64,000 nt of DNA from Mesoterricola sediminis (GTDB lineage Bacteria > Acidobacteriota > Holophagae > Holophagales > Holophagaceae). The translations under genes and the position numbers were made by a program. Positions 27,306 to 38,192 of the stretch are shown here, piece by piece. The notes beneath the pieces were generated by a model. It made no database searches and was not told the origin of the DNA. It saw nothing but the letters and a program-made list of their open reading frames with translations. The stretch is from positions 2,296,965 through 2,360,964 of the forward strand of contig NZ_AP027081.1 of the NCBI RefSeq assembly GCF_030295425.1, read 5' to 3'. Numbering within the stretch: the stretch's first letter is position 1; the number at the start of each line of letters is the position of its first letter.

Positions 27306-27929
27306 ATGAACGCCCTGTGCCGGGCCGCCACGGCCCTGTCTCTGTTGGTCCTCGCCGGATGCAGCTCCGAGGATCCGCGGCTGCCCGACAAGCTCTACGA
27401 GGAAGCCATCAGCCTCACCCAGCAGGGGCGGAACCAGGAAGCCCAGGCCCTCCTGAAGCGCCTGGCGTCCCAGTATCCGGACACCAAGGCGGGCCGCGAC
27501 GCGGTCAAGGACCTGTACACCCTGGACGGCCTCGTGCGCCAGGAGGTGCGGGAGCGCCAGCGGGCCCTCCACGGCACCATGAAGCGGGTCGCGGACGCGC
27601 TGACCCGCTACCGGAGCACCCACGGCGAGTATCCCCGCTACCTCTCGGCCCTCGTCCCCGACTACCTGGACCAGGCGCCGGAAACGCCCTGGAAGCACCC
27701 TTTCCTGTACCGCCCCTACGTGACCGTCCCCATCGCCGACGTGAAGGACCGCCGGGGCCGGGTGGCCCAGGTCTTCAACACCAAGCTCGACGGCTACATC
27801 CTCTGCTCGCTCGGCCTGGACCTGCAGATCGGGGGCGAGGACCTGGCGGAGGACAGCTACATCGTCAACGGCGAACCCTACAAGGGCGCAGCGCCGCCCC
27901 CCATCCCCCAGCCCCAGCCCCTGCGCTGA
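27306..27929 (+). CDS. Lipoprotein with pseudopilin-like C-terminal domain
   Basis: 207 residues. Lipoprotein signal with lipobox LAGC (CSSEDPR after cleavage). One TPR-like helix pair follows (YEEAISLTQQGRNQEAQALL). The C-terminal half (ADALTRYRSTHGEYPRYLSA then LVPDYLDQAPETPWKHPFLY) resembles the globular part of type II secretion pseudopilin GspG, where a tripeptide YP precedes short strands, though the N-terminal pilin helix is absent. Probably outer-membrane-bound; role unknown. It converges on the methyltransferase gene, 9 bp apart. Confidence 0.65.
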   Translation: MNALCRAATALSLLVLAGCSSEDPRLPDKLYEEAISLTQQGRNQEAQALLKRLASQYPDTKAGRDAVKDLYTLDGLVRQEVRERQRALHGTMKRVADALTRYRSTHGEYPRYLSALVPDYLDQAPETPWKHPFLYRPYVTVPIADVKDRRGRVAQVFNTKLDGYILCSLGLDLQIGGEDLAEDSYIVNGEPYKGAAPPPIPQPQPLR

Positions 27930-27938
27930 GCCCGGTCC

Positions 27939-28694
27939 TCAGCGGCCCCGGACGGGACGGTAGAACAGCACGTCGGTACCGAAGCGCGGGCTCCAGCTCA
28001 TCTTGAGCCGCTCCGTCCCCGCCAGCTCGAACCAGGGGTTGGGCGGCAGGCCCTTCTGGATCATGGCGAGGCCGCGGACCGTCCCCGCCTCGTGCAGGCG
28101 CCGGGCCACCGTGGTCAGCAGTTCGTCCGAGAAGAACACCGAATCCATGAACACCAGGGTGCAGCCCGTCAGGTCCGTCCGGGCCAGGTCCTCCTCCCGG
28201 AGCTCCAGGACCCGGCCGGGTCCCAGCAGCCCTCCGGCCCGCAGGCGATCCCGGGCCGCCCGGGCCACCGCCGCCCGCGACCCGGCCAGTTCCACCCCGA
28301 CGACCTTCGGCAAGGGCGTGGTCAGGAGGGCCTGCATGAGGAAGAAGCCCCGCCCGCAGCCCAGGTCGAACAGCACGTCCCCCCGCCCTGCCCCGAGGCG
28401 CCGGAGGATGGCGTCGGTGGCCGCCGGGGAGGGCTCGCCATAGATGTGGGCCTTGTCCAGGCTGATCCCCTCCGCGCCGTGGCTCGCGTTGATCAAGTGC
28501 CGCTCCGCCTCCGGCACGCCCGCCCGGAAATCGTCGATGGAACTGCCCGGGATGTCCGCGAACACGTCCTCCAGGTGCGCCGCCGCCACCCGCCAGCTCA
28601 GGGGCGCCGGCGCCGGCGCCGGAACCCGGCAGGCGCTCCCCAGCCCCAGGACCAGGGCCGCGACGATCATCAAGCGGGCAGGACGTTGGCGCAT
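27939..28694 (-). CDS. Lipobox-bearing class-I SAM methyltransferase, DOT1-like
   Basis: 251 residues. The N-terminus RPARLMIVAALVLGLGSAC has a basic start, hydrophobic core and a lipobox (GSAC), followed by a Pro/Ala spacer. The rest is a Rossmann methyltransferase: GEPSPAATDAILRRLGAGRG, DVLFDLGCGRGFFLMQALL (motif I) and KVVGVELAGSRA (motif II acidic E), then FMDSVFF. The spacing of motif I and the preceding conserved GE/YGE resembles DOT1-type methyltransferases. A membrane-anchored periplasmic enzyme would lack SAM, so either the signal is not used or substrate methylation occurs before export. ATG at 28694 follows GGAGGG. Confidence 0.65.
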   Translation of the reverse strand: MRQRPARLMIVAALVLGLGSACRVPAPAPAPLSWRVAAAHLEDVFADIPGSSIDDFRAGVPEAERHLINASHGAEGISLDKAHIYGEPSPAATDAILRRLGAGRGDVLFDLGCGRGFFLMQALLTTPLPKVVGVELAGSRAAVARAARDRLRAGGLLGPGRVLELREEDLARTDLTGCTLVFMDSVFFSDELLTTVARRLHEAGTVRGLAMIQKGLPPNPWFELAGTERLKMSWSPRFGTDVLFYRPVRGR

Positions 28695-28699
28695 GGGCC

Positions 28700-28730
28700 C
28701 TCCGCTATATAAATAATGCATTTAGCGGAG
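28700..28730 (-). promoter_or_regulatory. Possible RBS-masking hairpin upstream of the methyltransferase gene
   Basis: On the minus strand CTCCGCTA (28730-28723) and TAGCGGAG (28707-28700) are perfect 8-bp arms around an AT-rich 15-base loop. The second arm contains the GGAG of the only plausible Shine-Dalgarno before ATG 28694. Formed in RNA, it would mask the ribosome binding site. It could equally be a DNA operator with a TATA-rich centre. Confidence 0.5.
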
Positions 28731-29714: not shown

Positions 29715-29769
29715 GATCCTATGAAACGCGGAGGCGCGGAGGATCTCGCAGAGGGTCGCGGAGGAAAGC
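29715..29769. repeat. Left arm of inverted repeat around GxxExxY remnant, IS5 copy 2
   Basis: Same GGAGG-rich sequence as 3309-3363; it pairs with 29958-30017. Confidence 0.8.
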
Positions 29770-29945
29770 GCTCCTGGAACCTGCCCCTGGATATCGAGTG
29801 GAGGGGGCTTGTGGTTGAGCGGGCCTACCGGCTGGATTTGCTGGTTGACGACCTCGTGGTCGTGGAGGCGAAGGCGGAATGGAGGTCGGCCTGCTCCTCA
29901 ATTTCCGTCAGTGGCCTTTCAAAGACGGTGGAATCAAGCGGGTGA
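29721..29945 (+). pseudogene. GxxExxY-family protein remnant (passenger of IS5 copy 2)
   Basis: The 74-residue frame matches copy 1 (3315-3539) with the same RAYRLDLLVDDLVVVEAK core and the same missing N-terminal half. It ends at TGA 29943-29945. Confidence 0.6.
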
Positions 29946-30710: not shown

Positions 30711-33700
30711 TCAGGGCAGGAGGCTGTGGCCGGAGGCGGCCCAGAGCACCAGGACGGCGTCCTGGAGGTCGATCACCCCATCGGGCCTGGACACGCCGTT
30801 GGCCCAGGGGGCCAGGTCGAAGCGGGCCAGGTCCTCGGCGGTGGGGGTCACCAGACCATTGGCGATCTGGAAGGCCCGCAGGGCGTCGGCCATCGTGTAC
30901 AGGGCCGGGGTCGTGGCGGCGGCCCGCACCAGGTGCCGGGCCGTGTCCGCGCGCCGCCCCAGGGCGTCGGTGGCGGAGACGACCGCGCACCAGTCCTGGT
31001 ACCCGTCCAGGGGGAGCCGCACGGAGAAGGCGCCGTTCTGGACCGCGGGGGTCCAGGTGCGCCCGCCGAGGCTGACGGTCACCGTCACCGGCGGCGCGTC
31101 GGAGGCGACCGTCCCCCGCAGCAGGTAGGCGTCCGGCAGGAGCAGCAGGTCCCGCTCCGGGTCGGTCACCGCGACGGCAACCCCGGAGCCGAAGGTGATC
31201 GTCCGGGTCTCCCGGGCCGTCTTGCCGGCCAGGGAGGTGGCCTCCACCACCAGCGTGTTGGCGCCGGTCGCCAGGGTCAGGGGGACGGCGAAGGCCCCAT
31301 TGACCAGGGGGGCGGGAGCAGCGGCGCCGCCATTCAGGCGCCATGTCACCCCGGCCAGGCTGTCCAGACCTTCCGTGCCCGGAGCGGCGGAGGCCGACCC
31401 CGCCAGCGTCAGGTCGGGAACCTGGACGACGGCCCCGTTGGCGGGAGCCACGACCTCCAACCGGGGCGCGGTGAGGTCCAGGGTGACCTTCCGGACCGCC
31501 TGGGCCGTCAGCCCGGCCACATCCGTGGCCGTGAGGGTCAGGACGTTCGCCCCGGCCTTGAGGCGCACGGGCACGCTGAAGCGGCCGGAGGGGAGCACCG
31601 TCGCGGGCGCGCCGTCCAGGGTGAGGGTCACGGCCCCATTGACGCTGGTCGCCGACCCCTCGACGGTGAGGAGGACGGCGGAGGTGGTCATCCCGTCCGC
31701 GGGGGCGTCCAGGGCGATCACCGGCGGCGTGGCCGCCTGCACGAAGATCCGCACCTCCGCCGCCGCGGACGTGCCGTTGGCGTTGGTGGCCGTGTAGGTG
31801 AAGCGATCATGGCCCCAGAAGCCGGCCGCGGGCGTGTAGAGGAAGCGCAGGCCGCTCACCGTCAGGTCGCCGTGGGCGGGTGCCTCGGCGATCGTGAGGG
31901 CGGTGGCCTTCCCGCCCCCGATCACCGGGGTGATCGGCTGGGCGACGCTGCCGGCCGTCACGGTGACGTCCTGGCCCTGGGGCACGGGGAGGAGGGTATC
32001 CACCGTCGTCGCCGCGGACCCGCCGCTCACGTTCCCGTAGCCATCGGCGGCGGTGGCGGTGAGACTGCCCGACTGGTTCACGGGGAGGGTGAAGGTCCAG
32101 GCCCCAGCGGCATCCGCCTGGGCGGTGCCCAGGAGGGTCGCGCCCAGGTAGACCCGGACGGTGGCCCCGGCTTCGGCGGTGCCCGTCACCGTGCGCCCCG
32201 CCACCGACGTGATGACGGGGGCCGCGGGCGCGGCGGTGTCGATGACCGGCGTTCCGGTGGCCAGGCCTTCCAGGTCGGTGCGGGCCGGGAACCCGTCCGC
32301 GTCCCGGAGGGCGCCCACGGCGGCCGTGGCGTCCGCCACGCGCAGGGCCGGGCCCGCGGCGGCGGCGCCGTTGTCGCCTGGGCTGGCCACGTAGCGGAAG
32401 ACCAGGGACGTGGTGCCGCTGCCGGAGACGTAGGCGGCCCGGGCCGGGGCGCCGCCCACGGTCACGGGCAGGAACGGCGCGCCCGAGACGGTGACGGGGG
32501 CGCTGGTGCCCACGGTGTAGGTCACGGTGTTCAGCTGCGCGGCCACCCCGAGGCTGAGGATCCGGGGCGCCGCGGTGGCGAGGCGGGCCTGGTGATTGAG
32601 CAGGTCGCACACGAAGGCGTCGGCCGGCGCCGCGGCGGCCGGACCGAAGGGATCGGTGGCCAGCACGGCCAGAAGGGCGCCCTTGGGCGCCAGGGCCAGG
32701 GTGCCGGGAACCCACGCCACGCCCGTGGCGCGGCCCGACGGGTCGAGGGAGACGGGTGCGCCCGTGCCCCAGGCCGTGAAGACCCCCGATCCCGGAAAGG
32801 CGAGGGACGTCAGGCCGGCGGGTCCCGTGAAGGGGGCCACCAGGGCCTGGACGGCGCCATCCCCGTCCGCGGTGCGGATCGTTCCGCCGCCCAGGTCCGA
32901 GGCCAGGGCCGCGATGCCGTCGTTGCGGGGCGAACCGAGGCCGCCCAGGAGGGCGAGGACGCCCCCGCCCCGCACGTAGGCCTGGAACAGGGCCGCGTCC
33001 CCCGCCCCGAGGGCGGAGGTGGCGCGCAGGTCCCAGACCTGGTCGAAGGCGGCGAGGGCGGGCGGGGCCGCGGAGGCGGTGTCCCAGGCCGTGACGGCCA
33101 GGTTGGCGCCCAGGGCGGCCCGGGAGGCCAGGGCGGCCGCGAGCCCGGCCGGACCCTGGAGGGCATCGTGGAGGAGCAGGACCTTGGAGGCGGGCCCCGG
33201 CATGGCGTAGGCCGACGGCGCCGAGGCCGGGCCGTCCCCGGCGCCGGTGGTCGCGGTGACCGTGAAAGTGTAGGCCCGGTGGTTGACCAGGCCCTGGACC
33301 GTCAGGGGCGAGGCGGCGCCCCGCGCGGCGAGCAGGGTCGGCGCGCCGTCCACCAGGGCCGTGACGGTGTAGGCGGTGACGGCGGTGCCGCCATCGCTGT
33401 CGGGCGCCGTGAAGGCCACGGTGGCCTGGCCATCGCCGGCCGCGGCCGACAGGATTGCGGGGGCGCCGGGGAGGACCGGGACCACCGTCAGGACGGTGGC
33501 CGCGGAGTTCGAGGCCGCGAAATTCGCGTCGCCCGAGTACTCGGCGTGGATGGCATGGTCCCCGCCCCGCAGGCCGCGGGTCGTGAAGGCCGCCGTCCCG
33601 CCGTTGGCCGGGATCGCGCCCAGGGTGGTCGTTCCGTCCTTGAAGGTCACGGTGCCCGTGGCCCCGGCCGTCAGGGTGGCAGTGAAGGTGACGTCCTGGC

Positions 33701-36700
33701 CATAGGTGGCGGGCTGTGCCGACACCGCCAGGGTGACGGTGGAGGCGGCGGGCGCCACCGGGAGGGTCAGGGGCGCGGAGGTCCCGGGGGCGTAGTTGGC
33801 GTCCCCGCCGTAGACCGCCGTGAGGGCATGGCTGCCCCCGCCCAGGGCGGCGGGGCTGAAGGCGGCGAGGCCGCCGCCGACCGTGGCCGTGCCCAGGGTG
33901 GTCGCGCCTTCCTTGAAGGTCACGGTGCCGGTGGCCCCGATGGGAAGGGTGGCCGTGAGGGTCAGGGGCTGGCCGTAGGTGGCCGGGTTGGGGGAGGCGA
34001 CCAGGACGGGGATGACCGGGGCCGCCTGAACGACCAGCGTGACCGTCGAGGCGGTGGACGGCGCATAGGTGGCGGCCCCCCCGTAGACCGCGGAAATCGC
34101 GTGGCTGCCGCCGGCCAGGGTGGACACCGTGAGGGCGGCGGTCCCCCCGCTGAGGGTGGCCGTGCCGAGGGTGATGGCTCCATCCTTGAACGTCACCGTG
34201 CCCGTGGCGCCGGACGTCACCGTGGCTGTGAAGGTCACGGCAGCGCCGAAGGTGGACGGATTGGGGCTGGCGGCCAGGGTCGTGGTGGTGGGGAGGGTGC
34301 CCACCGTCAGGGCCAGGGAGGCCGAGGTCGACCCGGTGAAATTGGCGTTCCCGCCATAGACGGCGGTGAGGGTGTGGGGGCCGATCGCCAGGGCGGAGGT
34401 GGCGAAGGTGGCCGAGCCGCCCGAAAGCGTGGCGGTGCCCAGGGTGGTGGCCCCATCCTTGAAGGTGACCGTGCCCGTGGCCAGGCTGGAGACCGTAGCC
34501 GTCAGGATCACCGTCTGGCCGTACACCGCCGGATTGGGGGTTGCGGCCAGGCTCGTTGCGGAGGCGGCGGTATCCACCACCTGGGTGACGGAGCCCGAGG
34601 TGACGCTCGCGTAGTTGGCGTCACCGCTGTACACCGCCGTGAAGGAGTGGCTCCCCACGGGGAGGGTGGTCGTCTGGATGAAGGCCGCGCCCGCGTTGAT
34701 CGGGACGCTGGCGACGGTGGTGCCGCCGTCCCGGAACGTGATCGTGCCGGTGGCATCGGCGGGAACGCTCACCGAGACCGTCACGGTCTGGCCGTACGTG
34801 CTCGGGTCGGGACCGACGAGGATCGGCAGGGTGAAGGAGGCCTTGTTGACCGTCAGGGTGGATTGGGCGGACGTGGAGCCGCCGTGGTTGGCGGAGCCGC
34901 TGTAGACCGCCGTCAGGAGGTGGGTGCCGCCGCCCAGGGCCGAGGTGACGAGGGTGGCCGTGCCGCCCGAAAGCGGGGCGCTGCCCAGGGTCACGCCGCC
35001 GTCCAGGAAGGTGACGGTGCCGGTGTCCCCGGAGGCCACGCTGGCCGTGAGGGTCACGGCCTGGCCGTAGGTGCAGGGGTTGGGGGTGGGGTTCAGGACC
35101 GTGGTGGTCGCCGCCGGCTGCACCACCTGGGTGACCGGGCTGGAGACGGAGGCGGCGAAGTTGGCGTCGCCGGGGTAGGCGGCGGTGAGGGTGTGGGTGC
35201 CGCCGCCCAGGGCGGAGGTGCTGAAGGAGGCGGTGCCGCCGATGAGGGAGGCCGTGCCCAGCGTCGTGGCCCCGTCCTTGAAGGTGACCGTCCCGGTGGC
35301 CCCGGAGGTCACGATCGCCGTGAGGGTGAGGCTCTGGCCGAAGGTGGAGGGGTTGGGGGTCCCGGCCAGGGAGGTGGTCGTCGCCGCCGTCTGGACCACC
35401 AGGGAGGTGGTGGCCGTGGCGGAGCTGTAGTTGGCGTCCCCGCCGTAGACGGCGGAAAGGGTATGGCTGCCGCCGCCCAGCGTCGAGGTGGCGAGGGTGG
35501 CGACGCCGGAGCCGTTGGGGCTGGCGGTGCCCAGGGTCGTGGACCCGTCCTTGAAGGTGACCGTCCCGGTGACCCCCGCGCTGAGCGTGGCGGTGAGGGT
35601 GACGCTCTGCCCGTAGGTGGACGGGTTGGGGCTGGCCGCGAGGGCGAGCCCCGGCGCCGCGGGGTTGATCACCTGGGTGAGGGCCGAGGAGGTCGAGCCG
35701 TTGTACGCGCTGTCGCCCCCGTAGACCGCCGTGAGGCTGTGGCTCCCGCCGCCCAGGGCGGAGGTCGCGAGGCTGGCGGTGCTGGATCCGTCCAGAGTGG
35801 CCGTGCCCAGCGTGGAGGCGCCGTCCATGAAGGTGACCGTGCCGGTGGCGCCCGAGGTCACGGTGGCCGTCAAGGTCACGGACTGCCCGTAGGTGGTGGG
35901 GTTCACGCTGGAGACCAGCGCCGTCGTGGACGTCAGCTTGTTGATCACCGTGAAGGTGGCGCTGGTGGCGGACAGGGCATTGGTGTTGCCGGCCGCGTCC
36001 GTGCCGGTGCCGGCCGCGACGCGGATGCCCAGGGTCCCGTTCCCCGAGAGGCTGCCGAGGGTCACCGTCCGGGTGGAGCTGGAGCCGGAGACGCCGATGG
36101 ACCCGCAGGCGGCCGTGCCGGTGGCGACCAGGGTGATGTCGCTCGCCGACAGGGTGCAGGATGCGAAGTTGGCGTCCAGGTACGAGACGGTGCAGGTCAC
36201 CGGCCCCGTCGAGGTGGAGCTGGGACTGGGGGAACCGAGGGCCACCGCGGGCGCGGTCCGGTCGATGACGTAGGCCGGGCCGGCCTTGGGCAGGGTGTCG
36301 CAGACCGTGGTGCTCAGGCCCGTGTCGTTGACCAGGCGCAGGATCAGGGTCCCGTCGGCCGTGCCCGGGTTCAGGGTGATCACCCACTGGGCGTTGCTGG
36401 TACCCGCCTTGGCGCTCACGTCGGTGATGGCGGCGCCGGTGAGGGTCGGGTTGAGATCGAAGTTGGAGGCGGTGAGTCCCGTCACCGCCCGGTCGAAGGT
36501 GACCAGGTAGCTGACGCTGGAAGCCGCGGTGACCGCGCTGTCCTGGCGGGTGATCGAGGAGACGTTGGCACAGGGGGTCGGCAGGTTCGCCACGACCTGG
36601 AGGTTGTCCACGTCGAACCAGTCCCGGCAGCGGATGACGATCCTGTCGAGGGTCACGCCCACAAAGGAGGACAGGACCCCGGCCTGATTGAGGGTCTGGA

Positions 36701-37715
36701 ACAGGTTCTGCTTGCTCGCCCCGCTGTCGAAGACCCCCGTGTCCGCCACCTGGGTGGCCCCCAGGTACCCGAGGATCTGGAGGGTCGAATCCGGGGTCGA
36801 GGCGACGCCCGTCCAGCGCAGGTCCAGGGCCTTCAGCTCGAAGGTGGCGCTGGCCGCCAGGGTCGTGGTGACGGTGGCCCCACTGAAGCCCCCGTTGTAG
36901 GCGGTGCTGTCGCAGGGGGCGATCATGCCCTGGAAGCTGGAGAGGCCCGAAAAGTAATCGCCGGGCAGCACGTTCTGGAGGGTCCAGGTCATGCCGCTCT
37001 GGCTGTAGGTCGTCAGGTAGTTGTCCGTCGTCCCGAAGAAACCGTTGAGGGGCGCGGGGCTGAAGGCGGCGGCCGAGTTGAAGTCCAGGGTGACGGGGGT
37101 GGCCACGGTGCCCAGGCGGCCGCCGTAGGCGGCCTGGAAGGCGGCCGTGAAGGGCGAGGGCCGGGCCGCGGCGCCCACCTGCCGATCCAGCTCCCAGGTC
37201 CTGCCCTGGCCCAGGGGCGCGGCGGCGGCGGCGACGGGGACGCCTGCGAGGCGCCCCAGGGTCTTCAGGAAGGCCTCCCCTTCCCCGCCGGCGGCCACCT
37301 CGCACCCATGCACCTGGAGCGAACCGCCCGGGGCCAGGCTCCGGCCCAGGGCCGCCAGGGCCGCGGCATGGCGCGGCAGGGTCGCGGCCGTGAGGGGATC
37401 CCGGCCCAGGAGGAGCCGGCCGGGCTCCCCGTGGGCGACCACGTGGAGGGCCTGGAGACCCGTTCGTCCGGCCACCCGGGCCGCGATTCCCTCCAGGGAG
37501 GCTTCGGCCGGGGCCAGCCGCCGGCCCTCCACGCCGGGCCGCAGGCCCTGCAGGAGGCGGGCGCTGTCCTGGACCCCCGGGTCCACGAAGAGGAGCTCCC
37601 CCGGGACCGTCGCCCCAGCGGCAGGCCAGGCCATCGCCAGGGGCGCCAGGAGGGCCATCAGGCCCCTCGCGAGGCGCTGGAAACATCCGGATCGACCGTT
37701 CACGAAAGCTGTCAT
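30711..37715 (-). CDS. Giant secreted protein: DUF4347, nine Ig-like repeats, dockerin-like C-terminus
   Basis: 2334 residues. A signal peptide (LMALLAPLAMAWPAAGA) is followed by a DUF4347 domain (LLFVDPGVQDSARLLQGL, ALHVVAHGEPGRLLLG, LQVHGCEVAAGGEGEAF). A carbohydrate-module-like region (VTLDFNSAAAF ... FDVDNLQVV) and Ca-site-like Ig regions come next. Nine tandem Big_3-type repeats of about 91 residues follow, each with NPSTYGQSVTLTATV, GTVTFKDGATTLGTA and TLTAVYGGDANY. Then come one fibronectin-III-like domain, a domain with VLLLHDALQG...VWDLRA, a cadherin-like domain (HGDLTVSGLRFLYTPAAGFW), and more Ig units. The end DALRAFQIANGLVTPTAEDL and GVIDLQDAVLVLWAASG is dockerin-like. ATG at 37715 has AGGTAG upstream. 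A surface adhesin or matrix protein is likely. Confidence 0.8.
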   Translation of the reverse strand: MTAFVNGRSGCFQRLARGLMALLAPLAMAWPAAGATVPGELLFVDPGVQDSARLLQGLRPGVEGRRLAPAEASLEGIAARVAGRTGLQALHVVAHGEPGRLLLGRDPLTAATLPRHAAALAALGRSLAPGGSLQVHGCEVAAGGEGEAFLKTLGRLAGVPVAAAAAPLGQGRTWELDRQVGAAARPSPFTAAFQAAYGGRLGTVATPVTLDFNSAAAFSPAPLNGFFGTTDNYLTTYSQSGMTWTLQNVLPGDYFSGLSSFQGMIAPCDSTAYNGGFSGATVTTTLAASATFELKALDLRWTGVASTPDSTLQILGYLGATQVADTGVFDSGASKQNLFQTLNQAGVLSSFVGVTLDRIVIRCRDWFDVDNLQVVANLPTPCANVSSITRQDSAVTAASSVSYLVTFDRAVTGLTASNFDLNPTLTGAAITDVSAKAGTSNAQWVITLNPGTADGTLILRLVNDTGLSTTVCDTLPKAGPAYVIDRTAPAVALGSPSPSSTSTGPVTCTVSYLDANFASCTLSASDITLVATGTAACGSIGVSGSSSTRTVTLGSLSGNGTLGIRVAAGTGTDAAGNTNALSATSATFTVINKLTSTTALVSSVNPTTYGQSVTLTATVTSGATGTVTFMDGASTLGTATLDGSSTASLATSALGGGSHSLTAVYGGDSAYNGSTSSALTQVINPAAPGLALAASPNPSTYGQSVTLTATLSAGVTGTVTFKDGSTTLGTASPNGSGVATLATSTLGGGSHTLSAVYGGDANYSSATATTSLVVQTAATTTSLAGTPNPSTFGQSLTLTAIVTSGATGTVTFKDGATTLGTASLIGGTASFSTSALGGGTHTLTAAYPGDANFAASVSSPVTQVVQPAATTTVLNPTPNPCTYGQAVTLTASVASGDTGTVTFLDGGVTLGSAPLSGGTATLVTSALGGGTHLLTAVYSGSANHGGSTSAQSTLTVNKASFTLPILVGPDPSTYGQTVTVSVSVPADATGTITFRDGGTTVASVPINAGAAFIQTTTLPVGSHSFTAVYSGDANYASVTSGSVTQVVDTAASATSLAATPNPAVYGQTVILTATVSSLATGTVTFKDGATTLGTATLSGGSATFATSALAIGPHTLTAVYGGNANFTGSTSASLALTVGTLPTTTTLAASPNPSTFGAAVTFTATVTSGATGTVTFKDGAITLGTATLSGGTAALTVSTLAGGSHAISAVYGGAATYAPSTASTVTLVVQAAPVIPVLVASPNPATYGQPLTLTATLPIGATGTVTFKEGATTLGTATVGGGLAAFSPAALGGGSHALTAVYGGDANYAPGTSAPLTLPVAPAASTVTLAVSAQPATYGQDVTFTATLTAGATGTVTFKDGTTTLGAIPANGGTAAFTTRGLRGGDHAIHAEYSGDANFAASNSAATVLTVVPVLPGAPAILSAAAGDGQATVAFTAPDSDGGTAVTAYTVTALVDGAPTLLAARGAASPLTVQGLVNHRAYTFTVTATTGAGDGPASAPSAYAMPGPASKVLLLHDALQGPAGLAAALASRAALGANLAVTAWDTASAAPPALAAFDQVWDLRATSALGAGDAALFQAYVRGGGVLALLGGLGSPRNDGIAALASDLGGGTIRTADGDGAVQALVAPFTGPAGLTSLAFPGSGVFTAWGTGAPVSLDPSGRATGVAWVPGTLALAPKGALLAVLATDPFGPAAAAPADAFVCDLLNHQARLATAAPRILSLGVAAQLNTVTYTVGTSAPVTVSGAPFLPVTVGGAPARAAYVSGSGTTSLVFRYVASPGDNGAAAAGPALRVADATAAVGALRDADGFPARTDLEGLATGTPVIDTAAPAAPVITSVAGRTVTGTAEAGATVRVYLGATLLGTAQADAAGAWTFTLPVNQSGSLTATAADGYGNVSGGSAATTVDTLLPVPQGQDVTVTAGSVAQPITPVIGGGKATALTIAEAPAHGDLTVSGLRFLYTPAAGFWGHDRFTYTATNANGTSAAAEVRIFVQAATPPVIALDAPADGMTTSAVLLTVEGSATSVNGAVTLTLDGAPATVLPSGRFSVPVRLKAGANVLTLTATDVAGLTAQAVRKVTLDLTAPRLEVVAPANGAVVQVPDLTLAGSASAAPGTEGLDSLAGVTWRLNGGAAAPAPLVNGAFAVPLTLATGANTLVVEATSLAGKTARETRTITFGSGVAVAVTDPERDLLLLPDAYLLRGTVASDAPPVTVTVSLGGRTWTPAVQNGAFSVRLPLDGYQDWCAVVSATDALGRRADTARHLVRAAATTPALYTMADALRAFQIANGLVTPTAEDLARFDLAPWANGVSRPDGVIDLQDAVLVLWAASGHSLLP
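33475..35934 (-). repeat. Nine tandem Ig-like (Big_3-type) domain repeats
   Basis: Nine consecutive units of about 273 bp each inside the giant gene, conserved at the protein level and diverged at the DNA level. Each carries the TYGQ, GTVTFKDG and VYGGDANY landmarks. Expansion by duplication is evident; the divergence argues against very recent amplification. Confidence 0.85.
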
Positions 37716-38192
37716 GACGCTACCTATGGCTTGATCGCAGGGCCGGCGCGAACCCGGCCTGGGCTGGGGGGAATCAAACTCCCAGCCTATCGCCAGAACA
37801 GCCAGAGGAGCGAGCATAAATAGGAATGGCCTATGAACCCGCCCCCGAAGGCAAGGCTGGAGCGGCGTCCGGCGCCCTGCCCCATTCCGTATTTCCGGAT
37901 CTTCAATGCATGGCTATCGCCCCGAACCGTCCAGAGGCCGCCCGGATCGTCACGTGAATTAATTTCGTCCGCCCCCGGAGCGTGTCGGCAACCCCAAGGC
38001 AATGAATAGCTGCTTACAGGCGAAGCGATCCCATGCCATCCCCTACCTCTGCGTTATTCCCTGGTTCAGCATCTTCCCCCTCGAGGTGGATCGGTCCTGT
38101 GCAGAACCCTGCCAAGACCAGGGCGCGGGCAGACAGGGGCCTTCGCCCCTGCCTGCCCGCGCCGGTCCCGGACCCTCCGTTCGGGAAGGGAC
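37716..38192. other. 477-bp intergenic region before the giant gene, with leader hairpin
   Basis: No gene is supported. On the giant gene's strand the leader includes GGCTGGG...CCCAGCC arms (37787-37781 with 37768-37762) about 50 bp before the start. AT-rich patches (ATAAATAGG near 37816, GAATTAATTT near 37957) could hold promoters. The right end carries the tdh terminator. I looked for cyclic-di-GMP riboswitch motifs and did not see them. Confidence 0.5.
38122..38163 (-). terminator. Strong hairpin terminator after tdh
   Basis: GGCGCGGGCAG...AGGGGC-CTTC-GCCCCT...CTGCCCGCGCC forms a near-perfect stem of about 19 bp just past the tdh stop. The T run is weak, but the stem is very stable. Confidence 0.7.

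Follow-up and report, generated by a model that had tools for sequence, protein, structure and literature searches.

SAM is regarded as a cofactor confined to the cytoplasm. The described methyltransferases closest to the protein analyzed here are the eukaryotic DOT1/DOT1L H3K79 enzymes, a bacterial DOT1L solved with SAH (9ne1), and, more distantly, aKMT, an archaeal protein-lysine methyltransferase (5fa8, 5jwj), together with the Salinibacter protein 5bxy. Bacterial methyltransferases secreted into host cells have already been published (PMC10117894; PMC10739865); their setting differs from the present one in that host SAM is at hand. Modification of surface proteins would be common to our protein and to the outer membrane protein lysine methyltransferases of Rickettsia and of Acinetobacter Tol 5 (KmtA in the latter; PMC11784438); no export signal is named for KmtA in the portion of that paper used here. 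No periplasmic SAM methyltransferase was found described in searches of the open-access PMC literature, judged by title or by the start of the abstract. Here, we analyzed a gene whose product is most likely a lipoprotein that faces the periplasm and carries a SAM-binding domain of the DOT1 type.

The gene lies in a 64,000-nucleotide stretch (the window) of the Mesoterricola sediminis genome, which is a single contig of 4.52 Mb, and is read on the minus strand from an ATG at 28694 to a stop codon that ends at 27939 (Table 1). Its product consists of MRQRPAR, 14 uncharged and mostly hydrophobic residues, Cys22, a Pro/Ala linker, and a domain that begins from LSWRVA. The nearest named records come from the Holophagaceae MAGs UBA706 (65% identical) and UBA692 (64%). 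The N-terminus, MRQRPARLMIVAALVLGLGSAC, fits the PROSITE-style lipobox pattern. Genes of the LspA and Lgt families (PF01252 and PF01790) are found over the cut-off at one place each in the same genome.

Table 1. Features of the gene within the window and the basis of each assignment
Feature	Position	Strand	Basis
CDS, lipoprotein-type DOT1-like methyltransferase (putative), 251 aa + stop	27939..28694	minus	ORF; PF08123 over cut-off
GGAGG, Shine-Dalgarno-like, 4 nt upstream of ATG	28699..28703	minus	read from sequence
Predicted signal peptide, residues 1-21: n-region MRQRPAR, h/c-region LMIVAALVLGLGSA	28632..28694	minus	pattern and home-made scorer
Lipobox Cys22, predicted acylated residue	28629..28631	minus	Cys kept in 6/6 orthologues
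Linker RVPAPAPAP, from Cys22 to the conserved [ML][ST]WRVA domain start	28602..28628	minus	sequence
Conserved domain, residues 32-251, predicted DOT1-type fold	27942..28601	minus	AlphaFold2 mean pLDDT 83.5; 9ne1 Z 23.5, model residues 30-247
SAM motif I DLGCGRG, residues 110-116	28347..28367	minus	D110, G112, G114 invariant in 10/10 aligned
VGVELA with acidic E135	28284..28301	minus	E135 invariant in 10/10
REEDLA acidic motif with D169	28182..28199	minus	D169 invariant in 10/10
Motif IV FMDS, residues 182-185; Asp-Ser vs Asn-Ser of 9ne1	28140..28151	minus	M183, D184, S185 invariant in 6/6 orthologues; alignment to 9ne1

A preliminary description of this DNA had read a DOT1-like core behind a lipobox, and this reading was borne out by the PF08123 (DOT1) match (E 3.9e-7, 30.3 bits vs a curated cut-off of 23), by the lipobox pattern, and by the retention of these features in six of six congeners. 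The gene is present in all six genomes of the genus (that of the window and G066 to G070). Among the 71 other genomes of the window's family, the sole match (G060, E 6e-4) contained a stop and, once read, was dropped as a chance match. Each of the six copies has a basic n-region, an uncharged stretch of 11–17 residues, a Cys, and a Pro/Ala-rich linker of 9–18 residues, and these features persist while the N-terminal letters diverge. Since they recur in six diverged copies, we regard the predicted export and lipid-anchor signal as genuine. The strict lipobox pattern is found in four of the six, residue −3 being off-pattern in G066 (PLAC) and G069 (HVSC, followed by a second C). Furthermore, the lipobox Cys is the sole Cys of the protein in four copies; in G069 a second one follows it directly (CC), and in the window copy Cys113 and Cys178 are present besides Cys22. 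Signal-peptide prediction, which the preliminary description had proposed as a check, gave LIPO for four orthologues with our home-made scorer, SEC for G066, and TM? for G069. It had also held that homologues starting after the lipobox would make the signal an annotation artefact. Because the signal is judged genuine and is kept by close homologues, this explanation fails for the genus clade; only distant homologues, namely the four aligned cytosolic DOT1-likes, begin downstream of the lipobox.

The possible start sites were then compared. In three copies of the six, a simple gene caller preferred a different start: position 28670 in the window, the internal MSWRVA in G067, and, in G069, a GTG immediately upstream of the Cys. 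By eye, a Shine-Dalgarno sequence at the signal start is clear in the window copy and G068, weak or oddly spaced in G067 and G069, and absent from G066 and G070. No such sequence was seen by eye before the internal [ML][ST]WRVA start in any of the six, where the codon is ATG in four copies and CTG, which is not a start, in two, including the window copy. In the one pair measured, which is also the closest (G067 and G070), dN/dS was 0.34 over the first 30 codons, on ~10 synonymous and 11 other changes, and 0.16 over the remainder, indicating purifying selection on the core. The latter value, together with the full length of the gene in six genomes, ruled out a pseudogene.

The fold of the domain was analyzed by profile and by model. 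A profile of the six orthologues matched, among solved structures, 9ne1 best (E 8.6e-11), followed by 5bxy (E 4.7e-8) and aKMT 5fa8 (E 1.1e-7). An AlphaFold2 model built from a 10-sequence alignment had a mean pLDDT of 83.5 and a pTM of 0.78, and 9ne1 was its top structural match in both Foldseek and VIA-align (Z 23.5, rmsd 3.2, 189 aligned, 21% identity, model residues 30–247). Below 9ne1, VIA-align placed other DOT1s at Z 20.1 and lower, aKMT 5fa8 at 19.2, 5bxy at 18.9, and Trm14 at 18.6. The fold alone therefore names no substrate, because RNA methyltransferases (Trm14) score nearly as high as eukaryotic DOT1s.

Within the alignment, Y85-G86-E87, D110, G112, G114, E135, and D169 are invariant in all ten sequences, and the predicted SAM pocket looks conserved; motif I of G069 reads DLGSGRS. 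With the bacterial DOT1L 9ne1 our protein shares the DOT1 fold, YGE, DxGxG, GVE, and a C-terminal MSW, whereas motif IV is MDS in all six orthologues and NS in 9ne1, that is, Asp-Ser in place of Asn-Ser. The eukaryotic DOT1/DOT1L enzymes fall in the same Pfam family, over the cut-off, and their structures align at Z 16–20, some with a large rmsd. In contrast to them, our protein carries a lipoprotein signal and has no nucleosome context. The motif IV of human DOT1L is Asn-Asn; the position expected to be Asn-Asn in a eukaryotic-type H3K79 enzyme is occupied by Asp184-Ser185 in six of six orthologues, and our protein is not classed among those enzymes. aKMT and 5bxy have the same Rossmann core and are more distant.

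The preliminary description had called an exported methyltransferase unprecedented. This did not hold: the sequence collections contain a class of exported proteins with a methyltransferase fold. A search of 396 Acidobacteriota genomes gave PF08123 matches in 137, of which 113 exceeded the cut-off, and many of the 30 loci fetched from these matches belong to a second family with the motif VPTP, which we use as its working label. Relatives on plasmids bear the annotation "class I SAM-dependent methyltransferase" or "methyltransferase domain-containing protein", and its closest solved relatives are 5bxy (E 8e-69) and aKMT 5fa8 (E 4.5e-58). When 297 Acidobacteriota genomes were searched with a profile of six VPTP proteins, 68 gave a match at E ≤ 1e-15, all of them outside the family to which the window belongs; within that family, 60 of 77 genomes matched at E ≤ 1e-6 (best 3.6e-11), our gene being among the matches.

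As scored with the home-made scorer, a signal-peptide start is present in 30/30 of the best VPTP loci (one per genome), and in 29/30 at the start with the best RBS; a Sec signal is the better reading of the only "LIPO" call among them (L077). The scorer fired on 23 of 113 control genes at the caller's start and on 36 when the start was chosen freely; therefore, 30/30 is strong evidence for the set taken together but not for each protein singly. Short members were sampled as 20 chosen loci from 19 genomes, in which 20 proteins were readable in 17 loci (without L137, L145, and L150). These gave 15 SEC and 4 LIPO calls and one without a signal (L149), hence a signal in 19/20; the LIPO calls are clear for L131, L132, and L133 and doubtful for L136. 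On plasmids, relatives were found in five records, and the scorer called a signal in one of the three proteins to which it was applied. The Leptolyngbya protein (WP_017292073.1), annotated as "class I SAM-dependent methyltransferase", has a textbook lipobox (STGC); in the Agrobacterium protein, a signal is visible by eye but not called by the scorer, and the Chelatococcus protein, as annotated, was returned as "h-no-pos". The four cytosolic DOT1-likes, whose starts were chosen by hand, gave no signal (0/4). Exported proteins with a class I methyltransferase fold thus appear to be common in Acidobacteriota and offer an analogy in favor of export of the protein studied here. Like it, VPTP proteins combine export with a methyltransferase fold, and some are lipobox-anchored; they differ in forming a separate tree group, in having VPTP where ours has YGE, and in carrying mostly Sec signals. 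In the long VPTP proteins L034, L039, and L047, the methyltransferase core is followed by an additional C-terminal domain.

In a 28-row tree, the orthologues of our protein form a group (99/99) that sits with the four cytosolic YGE-type DOT1-likes, followed by L029 and L032, which are also of the YGE type and start with long hydrophobic stretches. A second group (88/83) is made up of the VPTP proteins; in L030, the row adjacent to it, no signal is visible by eye. The root is not fixed, a long-branch warning applies (to L038 above all), and 9 of 25 inner branches are drawn open. The scored set excludes L029, L032, and L027; L027 is also outside the alignment, and L043 is absent from the tree. 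Profile comparison showed that the two families are homologous over the core (97.6%, 99 columns). Because the lipobox lies ahead of the point at which the four distant cytosolic DOT1-likes begin, export appears to have been gained later, and separate gains in the DOT1-like and VPTP lines would be the simplest reading of these sequences. As to a mobile origin, tblastn found no relative of the lipoprotein in the plasmid collection, and a pattern scan of viral contigs, which detects close relatives only, found none there.

The surroundings of VPTP genes were also analyzed. In three of the four distinct plasmid loci, an APC permease gene (PF13520) adjoins the methyltransferase gene: the two overlap by 17 bp in Agrobacterium, lie 17 bp apart in Leptolyngbya (permease WP_017292074.1; a second Leptolyngbya record is the same locus), and lie 189 bp apart in Chelatococcus, where the gene order is reversed relative to the others. 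In Gloeothece, no permease was found within 5 kb. Among the short-member loci, a permease adjoins in 4 of 20. These four come from a single Acidobacteriota family (f22), and in each the permease gene shares the strand of the methyltransferase gene, with its stop within tens of bases of the candidate methyltransferase starts. Among the long-member loci, 1 of 20 has a permease, which is divergent. This permease, beside a long exported VPTP methyltransferase (L053 and L167, the same locus in G163), is 28% identical to that of Leptolyngbya. Apparent operons of an APC amino-acid permease and an exported methyltransferase were observed in L131 (4529–7099), L132 (5946–8487), and L133 (4561–7081), as well as in L128, L129, and L130; in L131 to L133, a lipobox enzyme and a Sec enzyme follow the permease in tandem. 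These arrangements suggest that a permease serves some exported methyltransferases and would be a candidate route for periplasmic SAM. The DOT1-like lipoprotein gene itself has no permease neighbor in the window or in loci L014 to L018. Relatives of the VPTP-linked permease at 41% identity over most of the length occur in two of the six congeners (G066 and G067), and the best relative in the window genome is 31–35% identical over parts only.

We therefore turn to what the lipoprotein may do. We favor, at a probability of roughly 0.85, a reading in which the protein is exported and its SAM-type pocket is intact. In this reading, it would be exported by Sec, diacylated at Cys22, and freed of its signal, and the DOT1-type class I domain would be tethered by the short Pro/Ala linker on the periplasmic face of a membrane. 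Whether it is an active periplasmic protein methyltransferase we put at even odds; if so, it would probably be an amine methyltransferase for an envelope protein. Because the SAM motifs are intact, amine methylation on extracytoplasmic proteins, probably at lysines of proteins near the membrane, would be the most likely activity, for which some transporter would have to carry SAM across the inner membrane. Counting against this explanation are the Asp-Ser of motif IV, the DLGSGRS of G069, the cytosolic state of the four distant homologues, the off-pattern −3 residue in two orthologues, the differing starts of the gene caller in three copies, the lack of a clear Shine-Dalgarno sequence at the signal start in at least two, the high scores of RNA methyltransferases in the fold comparison, and the lack of a permease neighbor or a telling operon partner at the gene's own locus. 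In addition, SAM is not known to occur outside the cytoplasm. A wider proposal, that many Gram-negatives run periplasmic SAM-dependent protein methylation, with DOT1-like and aKMT-like export evolved separately and a dedicated APC-type permease moving SAM or returning SAH, we consider rather unlikely. Given the conserved lipoprotein signal on a DOT1-type domain with intact SAM motifs, and the widespread separate VPTP family with its own export signals and occasional permease genes, the existence of periplasmic SAM and methylation becomes directly testable: if it is true, one kind of modification of envelope proteins has so far escaped notice, and if not, these domains have been converted to another use.

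The protein might instead be an exported binding protein or pseudo-enzyme that keeps its SAM/SAH pocket and senses or scavenges periplasmic adenosyl compounds without methylating anything. We consider this unlikely, albeit the foremost of the alternatives. The Asp-Ser motif in six of six orthologues agrees with it; in addition, no periplasmic SAM source is known, and lipoprotein ligand binders are common. However, YGE and the SAM motifs are kept along with the fold, the closest solved structures bear methyltransferase names, and Asp at that position of motif IV is found in other N-methyltransferases. Less probable is work in the cytoplasm, where an inefficient signal, or a second start at MSWRVA, would yield a soluble form able to encounter SAM either ahead of export or with no export at all. 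The ATG at the domain start in 4/6 orthologues, the choice of this start by the gene caller in G067, and the four cytosolic relatives that begin near MSWRVA all fit such a form, but a Shine-Dalgarno sequence precedes it in 0/6 by eye, CTG replaces the ATG in two copies including that of the window, and the signal features are kept in all six.

Class I folds take many substrates, and a halide methyltransferase is found at Foldseek rank 20. An enzyme that methylates small molecules beyond the inner membrane, such as one detoxifying thiols, metalloids, or halides, was therefore also considered; we rate it as improbable, below the cytoplasmic form, for the top matches are DOT1 proteins and aKMT, and by eye no detoxification genes adjoin the gene in the six loci with called neighbors. 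Finally, it is very improbable that the protein begins after the lipobox or that the N-terminus is an N-out, cytoplasm-facing membrane anchor. A start-site artefact was rejected on account of the in-frame signal segment in six of six close orthologues, the Shine-Dalgarno sequence in the window, and the codon pattern of the one pair, although the other starts of the gene caller in three copies count against this rejection, and four distant relatives scored without a signal. The anchor facing the cytoplasm, which had been raised in the preliminary description, is unlikely: the TM? call for G069 would suit it, but the hydrophobic stretch of 11–17 residues is short for a membrane anchor and the basic residues are on its N side.

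The gene of this probable lipoprotein was further examined for its genomic context. In G066, G067, and G070, it lies between rlmN and leuS (products assigned by eye), and the neighbors differ in the other congeners; none of the six loci has an operon partner that hints at a substrate. In G070 (L015, 11184–11894), an ORF that is reverse-transcriptase-like by eye lies between rlmN and the gene and is perhaps an inserted group II intron. The other methyltransferases of the window genome were scored for export at 25 loci (24 PF13649 and one PF01135). SEC was called for the frames taken in L102, L107, and L123; inspected by eye, the first two appear to span the membrane several times and the third does not resemble a methyltransferase, and in L104, L113, and L119, among others, the frame taken may be that of a neighbor.

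Within the window, the gene is convergent with another putative lipoprotein gene (27306–27929) and is bounded upstream by an IS copy from ~28836. This element, of the IS4/5 family, extends to ~30018 with DUF4096 and DDE in two overlapping frames, and scoring of 40 out of 118 candidates showed that the genome contains at least 40 copies at 97–100% identity. The right-hand ends of the copies vary, and a stretch of ~50 bp recurs inverted beyond them. Between the inverted stretches in the window (29721–29945), an ORF fragment, MKRGGAEDLAEGRGG..., resembles by eye a GxxExxY-type protein carried with the IS. Further on, at 30711–37817 on the minus strand, a 2368-aa ORF contains many repeated Ig-like units and probably encodes a secreted or surface protein.
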